NCBI RefSeq assembly: GCF_014202215.1
Contig: NZ_JACHGB010000005.1
Span: 62,001-126,000 of the forward strand
Length of the DNA stretch: 64,000 bases
Direction: 5' to 3'
Source: Quisquiliibacterium transsilvanicum
GTDB lineage: Bacteria; Pseudomonadota; Gammaproteobacteria; Burkholderiales; Burkholderiaceae_E
Positions within the stretch are counted from its first letter, which is position 1; the number at the start of each line of letters is the position of its first letter. The position numbers were made by a program, and so were the translations under genes. Positions 17,072 to 20,077 of the stretch are shown in pieces. Below the pieces are notes generated by a model that worked only from the letters and a program-made list of their open reading frames with translations, had not been told where the DNA came from and ran no database searches.

Positions 17072-17998
17072 TCAGTCGTGGTGGTGGTGCTCGTCGAGGA
17101 TCAGGTAGCAGGTGCGCCCCTCCACCGCCAGCGCCACCTCGGCGCCGTGCGGCAGCGTGAGCTTCGGACTGGCATGGCCAAAGGGCAGCCCGGTGAGGAT
17201 GGGCGTGCGGGTCTGCGTGCGCAGCCACTTCACCACCGCGGGCATGTCGAAGCCCGCATCCGCTTCTGAGAGCCGGTAGCCGTTGAAGTGGCCCAGCAGC
17301 ACCGCCTTCTGGCGGTCGATCACCCCGGCGTGCAGCAGCTGGGTGAGCATGCGCTCGATGCGATAGGGATGCTCGTTGATGTCCTCGACGAACAGGATGC
17401 CGCCGTCCACCTTGGGGAACCAGGGCGTGCCCAGCAGGCCGCAGACGATCGCGAGGTTGCCGCCCCAGAGCGTGCCGCGCGCCTCCACTCCGGAGGGCCC
17501 GCCGCAGCGGAAGCCGACGATCTCCAGCGCGCCCGACATCGCGTCCTGGAAGGTGCCGACGGTGATCTCGTCAAGATCCTCGAAGCGCTCGGCGCCGAAG
17601 TCGGCGATCAGGCTCGGCCCCGACCAGGTGGCCGCCTTGGCCTTCGCGAGCATCGCGAGCTGGAAGGCGGTGAAGTCGGACAGCCCCACCCAGCGCTTGC
17701 GCGCGCGCGCCAGCGCCTTGAAGTCCAGCCGCGGCAGGATGCGCGTGAGCCCGTATCCGCCGCGGGTGACCATCACGATTTCGGCGTCCTGCGCGGCGGC
17801 GCGCCCGATGGCGGCGACACGATCGTCGTCGCTGCCAGCGAAACGCTGCCGGCGCCTGAGCGCCGCGCGGTCCATCTTCGGCGCAAAGCCGGCGCGGCGC
17901 AGGTTCTCGAGGGCCCGCTCCACTGGCGCATCCGGCGCCAGCGCGCCCGAAGGCGAGACAAGGTAGACGGGCGTGGGCCGGGCCGCTGTATCGTTCAT
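17072..17998 (-). CDS. ldcA: LD-carboxypeptidase (peptidase S66 family)
   Basis: 308-residue serine peptidase that removes the terminal D-alanine from murein tetrapeptides during cytoplasmic peptidoglycan recycling. The nucleophile serine is in GLSDFTAF. The glutamate of the Ser-Glu-His triad is likely in the ILFVEDINEHPYRIERML region, and the histidine is in GLPFGHASPKLTLPHG. No signal peptide is present, in keeping with a cytoplasmic enzyme. ATG 17998 is chosen because homology begins there (PVYLVSPSGAL). The protein ends in a DEHHHHD tail. It is divergent from the halohydrin-dehalogenase-like gene. Confidence 0.9.
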   Translation of the reverse strand: MNDTAARPTPVYLVSPSGALAPDAPVERALENLRRAGFAPKMDRAALRRRQRFAGSDDDRVAAIGRAAAQDAEIVMVTRGGYGLTRILPRLDFKALARARKRWVGLSDFTAFQLAMLAKAKAATWSGPSLIADFGAERFEDLDEITVGTFQDAMSGALEIVGFRCGGPSGVEARGTLWGGNLAIVCGLLGTPWFPKVDGGILFVEDINEHPYRIERMLTQLLHAGVIDRQKAVLLGHFNGYRLSEADAGFDMPAVVKWLRTQTRTPILTGLPFGHASPKLTLPHGAEVALAVEGRTCYLILDEHHHHD

Positions 17999-18030
17999 GG
18001 CTGAAGTCTGCCACAGGGCCCGCGCGTGCC

Positions 18031-18055
18031 GCACTGCCGCGGCCCCGGGCAGTGC
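18031..18055. repeat. Inverted repeat in divergent promoter region
   Basis: Perfect 8-base arms GCACTGCC / GGCAGTGC separated by 9 bases, in the 97-base gap between ldcA and the halohydrin-dehalogenase-like gene. It could be an operator or an mRNA leader hairpin for the plus-strand unit. Function is inferred only from location. Confidence 0.35.
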
Positions 18056-18095
18056 GCCCGCGGCGCGGGCACCCCATCGGACGAAGGAACAGGGC

Positions 18096-18779
18096 ATGAG
18101 AATCGGAGACAGCCTCGCCGGCAAACGCGTGCTGGTCACCCAGGCGGACGACTTCATGGGCCCGGTGCTGTGCGAGGTCTTCGCCGCGCACGGTGCGCAG
18201 GTGATCGCCGACAAGACGACGCTGGGCAGCATCGCTGCCGGCGAGGCCGCGGTGCGCGCCGCGGGCGAGGTCGACGTGGTGATCGCCAACCTCGGCGTTC
18301 CCGCGCCCACCTCGCGGGTCGCCGACGTCACCGACGAGGAGTGGCGGCACGTGTTCGCGCACATCGTCGACCCCCTGCCCGGCATCGCGCGCGCCGTGCT
18401 GCCGCAGATGACGAAGCGGCGCGCCGGCAAGATCGTGGTGATGGGCAGCGCCACCGCCTTCCGGGGCCAGAAGCGCACGTCCGTCTACAGCGCCGCGCGC
18501 GGCGCCCAGGCCTCGTGGGTGCGCGCGGTGGGCACCGAGGTGGCGCCCGACAACGTCCACGTCAACCTCATCGCCCAGAACTTCGTCGAGAACCCGATGT
18601 ACTACGGGCCGGAGGTCCAGGCGCTGCCCGCGTTCCAGGAGCGGCTCAGGCGCGAGGTGCCGCTCGGCAGACTGGCCACGGCGCAGGAGGACGCGATGTT
18701 CGCGGTGTTCCTGGCCTCCTCGGAGGTGAGCTTCTTCGCGGGACAGAGCATCCCGTTCGCTGGCGGCTGGGCAACCTGA
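18096..18779 (+). CDS. Halohydrin dehalogenase-like SDR protein
   Basis: 227-residue member of the short-chain dehydrogenase/reductase fold that lacks dehydrogenase hallmarks. The NAD-binding glycine motif is replaced by T-X4-F-X-G (Thr15, Phe20, Gly22 in VTQADDFMG). The catalytic signature is S-X12-Y-X3-R (Ser118, Tyr131, Arg135, in GSATAF...VYSAARG), with arginine instead of the SDR lysine. These two patterns together define halohydrin dehalogenases, which turn vicinal halohydrins into epoxides and can run in reverse with other anions. Length fits (about 225-255). ATG 18096 has AAGGAACAGG just upstream. The next gene, 13 bases on, is an AhpD-like protein, likely co-transcribed. Activity is inferred from motifs alone. 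Confidence 0.75.
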   Translation: MRIGDSLAGKRVLVTQADDFMGPVLCEVFAAHGAQVIADKTTLGSIAAGEAAVRAAGEVDVVIANLGVPAPTSRVADVTDEEWRHVFAHIVDPLPGIARAVLPQMTKRRAGKIVVMGSATAFRGQKRTSVYSAARGAQASWVRAVGTEVAPDNVHVNLIAQNFVENPMYYGPEVQALPAFQERLRREVPLGRLATAQEDAMFAVFLASSEVSFFAGQSIPFAGGWAT

Positions 18780-18792
18780 GCGGAGCGTGCCG

Positions 18793-19329
18793 ATGAACGC
18801 ACCGCGAATCCCCTATCTCCCCGCCAACCTCGCCGAACCCGCGGCGCTGGTTTCGGCGATCCGCGCGCGTCGCGGCGGCGCGCTGCTGGAGCTCGACCGG
18901 ATGCTGCTGCACAGCCCGGCGTTGGCGTCCGGCTGGAACGCTTTCCTGGGCGAGGTGCGCAGCGGCCTGGCGCTCGACCCGAAGCTGCGCGAGCTCGCGA
19001 TGTGCGTGGTGGCGGTGCTCAACGGCGCGGAGTACGAGTTCGTGCATCACGCGCCGGTGTACCTGGCGGCGGGCGGCACGCAGGCTCAGCTGGACGCGAT
19101 GCGCGATCCGGAGCGCGCGAGCGGCAACACCGCGCTGTTCGACGCGACCGAGCGCGCCGCGCTGGCGCTCACCGTGGAGATGACGCGCAGCATCCGGGTG
19201 GAGGACGGCACCTTCGCCGCGGTTCGCGACCAGCTCGGCGAGCAGCAGACCGTGGAACTGGTCGGCGTGATCGCCGCCTACAACATGGTTTCGCGCTTCC
19301 TGGTGGCGCTGGGAGTGACGCCCGGATAG
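18793..19329 (+). CDS. Carboxymuconolactone decarboxylase / AhpD-like family protein
   Basis: 178-residue all-helical protein of the CMD/AhpD-like fold. The conserved core is KLRELAMCVVAVLNGAEYEFVHHAPVYLAAGGT. The AhpD-type CxxC redox pair is absent, so a peroxidase-reductase role is unlikely and a lyase/decarboxylase-like or unknown role is more probable. The C-terminal half carries the paired helix repeat (FDATERAALALTVEMTRS). ATG 18793 is preferred to the GTG two codons earlier. It follows the halohydrin-dehalogenase-like gene closely, suggesting the two act on one substrate. A hairpin follows its stop. Confidence 0.78.
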   Translation: MNAPRIPYLPANLAEPAALVSAIRARRGGALLELDRMLLHSPALASGWNAFLGEVRSGLALDPKLRELAMCVVAVLNGAEYEFVHHAPVYLAAGGTQAQLDAMRDPERASGNTALFDATERAALALTVEMTRSIRVEDGTFAAVRDQLGEQQTVELVGVIAAYNMVSRFLVALGVTPG

Positions 19330-19357
19330 AGGCACCGCGCAGCCGGCGGGAACGCGT

Positions 19358-19388
19358 GGCGACGGGCGCAGCCGCTGCGCCCGTCGCC
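19358..19388. terminator. Strong hairpin between convergent genes
   Basis: Perfect 14-base stem (GGCGACGGGCGCAG / CTGCGCCCGTCGCC) with a 3-base loop, 28 bases after the CMD gene stop and 3 bases before the dolP stop. There is no clear T-run on either side, so it is a terminator or 3'-end stabilising hairpin serving both convergent transcripts. Confidence 0.6.
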
Positions 19389-19391
19389 TGC

Positions 19392-20039
19392 TTACTTCTG
19401 GCCGCCTTCCCGGCTCACCCGCTCGATGCGCGCGAGCTCGTCCGCAGTCACGTACTCGAACACCGTGACCACGCGCTGCACGCCGGACACGCGGCTCGCC
19501 ACCTGGGCGGCGCGATCGCCCTCGGGGCGCGTGACGATGCCCATCAGGTAGACCACGCCGGCCTCGGTCACCACCTTGATGGTGGTGGCCTGGATGTCGC
19601 GCGCCTCGATCAGCATGGTCTTGACCCGTGCGGTGATCGAGGTGTCCGCCGCCGAGGTGCCAAGCGACACGCGGCCCGCGACCTGCAGTTCGTTGTGCAC
19701 CGAGCGCACGTTGTCGAGCCGGCCGACGATGGCCGCGGCTTCGGTGCGCGAACGTTCGTCGAGCACCTGGCCGGTGAGCAGCACCTTGCGGTTGAAGCTG
19801 GTGACGCCGATCCCGCCGGCGTCGGGCAGCTGCTGGCGCAGCTGTGCGGCCGCCTTGACCTCGATTCCGGTGTCCTCGGTCTGGGCGCCGATGGTGCGGC
19901 GATCGTTCGCCGCCATTGCGCCGACCACAACGCCGGTGGCCGCCAGCGTGAAGCACCCCGAGAGTGCCAGCGTGGAACCGACCAGCGAGCCGACGACAGC
20001 GGCCCGCGACAGCGCGGACATTGCGCGATTGAACTTCAT
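19392..20039 (-). CDS. dolP: BON-domain lipoprotein DolP
   Basis: 215-residue outer-membrane lipoprotein with a signal peptide ending in the lipobox LALSGC (Cys about residue 29), then two BON domains (residues ~55-125 and ~130-205; see VLLTGQVLDERSRTEAA and GVVYLMGIVTRPEGDRAAQ). DolP (YraP) protects outer-membrane integrity and helps divisome-linked amidase control. ATG 20039 gives a sound signal peptide; longer in-frame starts do not. It sits downstream of diaA and near yraN and rsmI, the same neighbourhood as in many gamma- and betaproteobacteria, which supports the assignment. Confidence 0.88.
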   Translation of the reverse strand: MKFNRAMSALSRAAVVGSLVGSTLALSGCFTLAATGVVVGAMAANDRRTIGAQTEDTGIEVKAAAQLRQQLPDAGGIGVTSFNRKVLLTGQVLDERSRTEAAAIVGRLDNVRSVHNELQVAGRVSLGTSAADTSITARVKTMLIEARDIQATTIKVVTEAGVVYLMGIVTRPEGDRAAQVASRVSGVQRVVTVFEYVTADELARIERVSREGGQK

Positions 20040-20077
20040 GAATCCCCCTCGTGCCATGGCGCCCGTGCGGGCACGAC

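Follow-up and report, generated by a model that had tools for sequence, protein, structure and literature searches.

Halohydrin dehalogenases (HHDHs) are prized biocatalysts that convert haloalcohols into epoxides. Two signatures have been published for these enzymes (PMC11976700; PMC4989007), T-X4-F/Y-X-G, to which the nucleophile (halide) pocket replacing the glycine motif of SDR proteins has been assigned (PMC11976700), and S-X12-Y-X3-R, which comprises the catalytic triad (PMC4989007). The D subtype is known in many versions, because a list from HheD to HheD38 was already given in 2016 (PMC4989007). Solved structures exist for HheD2 (PDB 7b73, according to the entry title and PMC9629495), for a triple mutant of HheD8 (PDB 8xxb) and for HheB (PDB 4zd6). 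HheC of Agrobacterium radiobacter AD1 bears the same signatures, and its gene is described as sharing an operon with that of an epoxide hydrolase (PMC11976700). The locus reported here belongs to the genome of Quisquiliibacterium transsilvanicum and was analyzed within a window of 64,000 nucleotides, i.e. the whole stretch of DNA under study. The original prediction had seen in it a candidate HHDH in a two-gene unit, with Thr15, Phe20 and Gly22 in place of the NAD-binding glycine motif, Ser118, Tyr131 and Arg135 in place of S-Y-K, and spacings exactly as published. These residues and both spacings were found as claimed in the translated open reading frame at 18096-18779 on the plus strand, which runs from ATG to TGA and encodes 227 amino acids. 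Motif 1 (T15-X4-F20-X-G22) is encoded at 18138-18161 and motif 2 (S118-X12-Y131-X3-R135) at 18447-18500, while the AAGGA at 18084-18088 on the same strand, 7 nt upstream of the ATG, is the likely ribosome-binding site. A scan of positions 17900-19500 for promoters and terminators found none. Despite the common signatures, the window protein aligns weakly with HheC (about 59 bits), and its gene, unlike that of HheC, is not joined to an epoxide hydrolase gene in an operon.

Matches to short motifs can arise by chance, and the protein might in that case be an ordinary NAD(P)-dependent SDR; profiles for SDR proteins from Pfam and NCBIfam do match it. As a point against the HHDH assignment, none of the best 25 of 183 NCBIfam models reaches its cut-off. 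The search of genome contigs with the window protein yielded 72 loci, comprising 64 close relatives (L003-L066, identity at least 47%) and eight weaker matches (L067-L074, identity at most 32%). Both motifs are present in the window protein and in all 64 close relatives (65 of 65 proteins), whereas neither motif was found in any of 28 SDR controls, which consisted of the eight weaker matches and 20 of the 35 other matches in the own genome. The controls show the S-Y-K pattern in 26 and a glycine-type motif in 27 of the 28 cases. In the structure alignment, which holds 64 of the 65 sequences (L022, truncated at a contig end, was left out), T15, G22, S118, Y131 and R135 show no variation, while conservation of F20 reaches at least 90%. 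Hence, the motifs of the window protein are beyond chance. The ranking of solved structures by phmmer points in the same direction, with HheD2 (3.5e-79), HheD8 (3.1e-74) and HheB (2.4e-61) in front, followed by a steep fall to 2.3e-25 and with FabG at 6e-23.

The phylogenetic analysis included 97 rows, namely 69 HHDH rows (66 from the loci together with the window and three from the PDB) and the 28 SDR controls. The HHDH rows split from the SDR proteins with a support of 100/99, a statement that is limited to B/D-like enzymes because HheA, C, E, F and G are absent from the tree and HheD2, HheD8 and HheB are its verified HHDH rows. One group of 54 rows (support 100/98) unites the window protein with HheD2, HheD8 and 51 loci, and the nearest kin of the window HHDH are from Quisquiliibacterium MAGs and related betaproteobacterial MAGs. 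HheB falls outside this group, together with seven loci including L055, and six further loci (L054, L057, L061-L064) belong to neither group; an assignment of all 64 relatives to the D type was therefore rejected. Although they come from a different lineage, HheD2 and HheD8 resemble the window protein in sequence (56% and 55% identity over 220 residues), motifs, shortened nucleotide region and predicted fold (rmsd 1.2-1.3). HheB is 52% identical and has the same motif spacings and shortened region, but carries Tyr instead of Phe in motif 1. By its sequence the window HHDH belongs to the already known D subtype, in a comparison that did without the sequences of HheD, HheD3, HheD5 and HheD6, and since its predicted fold agrees with this placement, it represents a known type of enzyme.

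The AlphaFold2 monomer model of the window HHDH reached a mean pLDDT of 94.4, and its best nine Foldseek matches were all chains of HheD2, HheD8 or HheB (rmsd 1.2-1.5). The predicted order of elements is beta1-alphaA-beta2-helix-beta4. Motif 1 and the beta4 Asn are separated by 50 residues in the window protein as well as in HheD2, HheD8 and HheB, whereas the 20 of 28 SDR controls for which the distance was measured have a median of 77 (67-90). The usual nucleotide-binding region is thus shorter by about 27 residues, and what has been lost probably comprises the strand that binds adenine in the SDR cofactor site. Sequence and model together indicate an SDR fold that has no nicotinamide cofactor site, with a putative halide/nucleophile pocket suggested by motif 1. 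The motif controls, the missing segment and the tree, together with HheD2, HheD8 and HheB as nearest structures, speak against an ordinary SDR with accidental motifs, which we rejected as extremely improbable. The phylogeny, named by the original prediction as a possible refutation, came out in its favor, and the sequence, the motif controls and the predicted fold support its call of an HHDH. We consider it very probable that 18096-18779 encodes an HHDH of the HheD subtype, in which the cofactor site of the SDR fold has been lost and a halide/nucleophile pocket has taken its place. By analogy to HheC, Ser118 would position the substrate hydroxyl and Tyr131, its pKa lowered by Arg135, would take the proton; the alkoxide might then displace the neighboring halide, so that an epoxide leaves, and in the reverse direction the epoxide would be opened by anions, for instance azide or cyanide.

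The gene downstream, at 18793-19329 on the plus strand, begins with an ATG 13 nt past the HHDH stop, as had been claimed, and encodes 178 amino acids (a GTG start at 18787 is also possible). The description of its product as an AhpD/CMD-like protein without CxxC was likewise correct. The Pfam CMD domain (PF02627) matches at 7.1e-10, and alignment and conservation place Ala79 and Glu82 at the positions of the two Cys residues of AhpD-like relatives. A function as redox-active AhpD peroxidase was rejected due to the lack of CxxC. The match is at the superfamily level, and the structures of 4-carboxymuconolactone decarboxylases, 4g9q and 2af7, are matched at E values of 0.2 and 1.6. The model of the protein shares its fold with the AhpD/CMD proteins 2ijc, 2pfx and 6k40 and, as a distant structural match, with the debrominase Bmp8 (6ohi), from which fold family it differs by the missing CxxC and by scores under the NCBIfam cut-offs. 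The gene pair is flanked by a divergent gene for an S66 LD-carboxypeptidase (LdcA, 17072-17998, minus strand) and a convergent gene for a BON-domain protein (19392-20057, minus strand), which served as locus markers. Pfam matches to these two and to an acetyl-CoA-synthetase-like AMP-binding protein, SIS and RsmI confirm that the surroundings are ordinary. Selection on the two genes was analyzed by Nei-Gojobori dN/dS ratios in four window pairs and three other pairs. The ratios were 0.13-0.31 and 0.025-0.125, respectively, for the HHDH and 0.24-0.49 and 0.08-0.32 for the CMD gene; both genes are under purifying selection.

The HHDH family had been called rare, which is partly right: 25 of 300 genomes drawn from the order gave a match (E 1e-40), but 30 of 74 genomes of the family (G037 and G049 counted on partial matches alone) and seven of ten genomes of the genus have a match at E 1e-30. 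Among plasmids, one in 72,556 records matched (E 1e-25). Four of the matches in the order (G090, G179, G253, G341), all from one small-genome genus, show 38-41% identity and perhaps represent another HHDH subtype. The original prediction had further suggested that the CMD protein may act on the same compound as the HHDH. Such a dedicated module, in which the HHDH would make or open an epoxide and the CMD protein (and a VOC protein in some genomes) would act on the product, is consistent with the common strand and the short gaps, and within the genus all seven genomes with an HHDH (G000, G023, G024, G027-G030) have the two genes side by side in the same orientation. Moreover, strong CMD orthologues (E not above 1e-40) occur in 26 of the 30 family genomes that have an HHDH versus 25 of the 44 that lack it, with a Fisher p of 0.0098 over the 74 genomes that is uncorrected for relatedness and includes the nine genomes of genus g11, which have neither HHDH nor strong CMD. 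However, adjacency was found in none of the 19 other family genomes carrying both genes; in 17 of these, all draft assemblies, the two genes are on separate contigs, and in two they lie more than 500 kb apart. Among 30 CMD loci read, 23 have no HHDH neighbor and show instead hemN-like, acyl-CoA synthetase, acyl-CoA dehydrogenase or other genes next to CMD, and CMD is present at five of the 72 loci of the contig search and absent from the rest. A cultured relative, Zeimonas arvi (L021), for example carries the HHDH gene but has no CMD gene next to it.

The sister genome G025 provides a natural empty site (L162:1827-9188), in which no HHDH match was found and the order AMP-binding synthetase, LdcA, CoA ligase, CMD, VOC, BON, SIS is kept. 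The VOC gene follows CMD in G024, G027, G028 and G025 and is not found there in G000, G023, G029 and G030. Such VOC-family genes directly after CMD were read at L003:5535-5948, L004:9232-9648 and L162:7391-7786, and in L003 and L004 they overlap CMD by 4 nt; gene calls at the loci come from a composition-based caller, so that start positions are uncertain. The two-gene unit is therefore real but restricted to the genus, an outcome of the suggested co-occurrence check that weakens CMD as obligate partner of the HHDH, and a common compound finds no support past the gene order. Because of this limited adjacency, the many CMD genes without HHDH and the empty site in G025, it seems that the HHDH comes and goes beside a self-standing CMD. 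The pairing is a genus-level gene order and no established module. Given that the companionship is constant only within one genus, it is probably not a new pathway, and we regard a dedicated HHDH-CMD module as quite unlikely. The pairing had been put forward as undescribed, and indeed no paper mentioning both halohydrin dehalogenase and carboxymuconolactone decarboxylase was found in the literature searched. Our preferred reading is that the HHDH would be an optional, lineage-variable gene inserted beside an independently existing CMD gene, and that it most likely serves to detoxify or exploit haloalcohols or epoxides encountered occasionally.

Alternatively, the window HHDH might be a cofactor-free protein of the HHDH fold whose true reaction involves a natural epoxide or another leaving group, with dehalogenation as side activity. 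The substrates on which HheC has been tested are probably not its natural ones (PMC11976700), the gene contexts of HHDHs vary widely over the 65 loci, and in 15 of these, all from the Limnohabitans group, a glyoxalase I gene precedes the HHDH gene (L030, L032-L034, L036, L037, L039, L041, L043, L044, L046, L047, L051, L053, L065). The glyoxalase I of L033 scores 165 bits with NCBIfam TIGR00068 (cut-off 120), and the pairs in this group are mostly situated behind a thioesterase-like gene. At L054:7323-8675 a tandem pair of HHDH-type genes was observed, with HHDH motifs in both. Against a different true reaction stands the conservation of the halide-pocket motif in every one of the 65 proteins, as well as the fact that some relatives adjoin epoxide hydrolases and one a haloalkane dehalogenase. 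On balance this alternative is possible but rather doubtful, and we keep to halohydrin conversion by an optional HHDH.

An epoxide hydrolase gene adjoins the HHDH gene in four of the 65 loci (L055, L061, L063, L064). In L055 (L055:6-1951), from a gammaproteobacterial MAG, the B-like HHDH is followed by an EHN-type epoxide hydrolase (8.5e-41), and in the other three an alpha/beta-type epoxide hydrolase overlaps the HHDH by 4-16 nt, among them Hwanghaeella (L063:7992-9580) and Bosea (L064:6649-9580). A second Bradyrhizobium (L158:4803-7730) has the HHDH next to an epoxide hydrolase, with no haloalkane dehalogenase found at that locus, and on the Novosphingobium plasmid pSA2 (L144:6793-8666) an annotated epoxide hydrolase is located 11 nt before the HHDH. 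The most complete arrangement was found in Bradyrhizobium erythrophlei GAS478 (L061:6636-10549), where a sulfopropanediol-dehydrogenase-like gene and the HHDH gene are accompanied by a fused open reading frame of 628 amino acids, the N-terminal half of which is an epoxide hydrolase (6e-55 to EchA of A. radiobacter AD1, 1ehy) and the C-terminal half a haloalkane dehalogenase (NF002938 with 476 bits at a cut-off of 241, 7pw1 at 2.9e-122, LinB at 8e-113). The residues that we take to be catalytic are conserved in the alignments of both halves. The gene upstream of the HHDH matches sulfopropanediol 3-dehydrogenase 8v35 at 1.1e-112, compared to 3.8e-75 for the best histidinol dehydrogenase, and the NCBIfam hisD model likewise scores above its cut-off. 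The haloalkane dehalogenase half is no general feature of such loci: among five genomes tested, a related gene exists elsewhere in that of L063 and in that of L055, where it is a haloalkane dehalogenase, and none was detected in those of L064 and L054. Judged from these genes, L061 possibly encodes a natural route from haloalkane to diol, and halogenated C3 sulfonates may be guessed as substrates. The literature searched contained no report on Bradyrhizobium with the three enzymes or with haloalkane dehalogenase, and none on HHDH genomic context or the degradation of chlorohydroxypropane sulfonate; the search for HHDH gene clusters and physiological role gave mostly unrelated papers.

The own genome encodes a single epoxide hydrolase of the EHN type, which lies beyond the window and far from the HHDH (G000:C5:291373-291690). 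It is 59% identical to the HHDH-adjacent one of L055 and belongs to a family present in one of 14 control genomes; this unlinked enzyme is a possible next step after the HHDH. A search of the own genome with the L061 fusion revealed no haloalkane dehalogenase, because all seven matches (E 1e-5) fall within the epoxide-hydrolase half, and for the sulfopropanediol-dehydrogenase-like gene one match of 36% was obtained, whose size is that of an ordinary HisD. It is conceivable, though unlikely, that the HHDH of the genus works in a real chromosomal halohydrin/epoxide route consisting of HHDH, CMD, in some genomes VOC, and the unlinked EHN enzyme, as a local version of a native haloalcohol catabolism of B/D-like enzymes. 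If true, it would belong to a wider theme that is fullest at the Bradyrhizobium locus L061, with halogenated C3 sulfonates or halopropanols as possible substrates.

Collectively, the window adds an HHDH that shares 56% identity with the closest D-type enzyme of solved structure, and its locus documents the presence and absence of an HHDH at an otherwise fixed gene order. The three enzyme classes united in L061 are the set that has been combined artificially for 1,2,3-trichloropropane, a compound of which, according to PMC5539299, aerobic degraders had not been isolated from nature. The survey of 65 loci with their gene order provides leads on the natural roles of HHDHs, above all through the epoxide-hydrolase neighbors and the enzyme set of L061.
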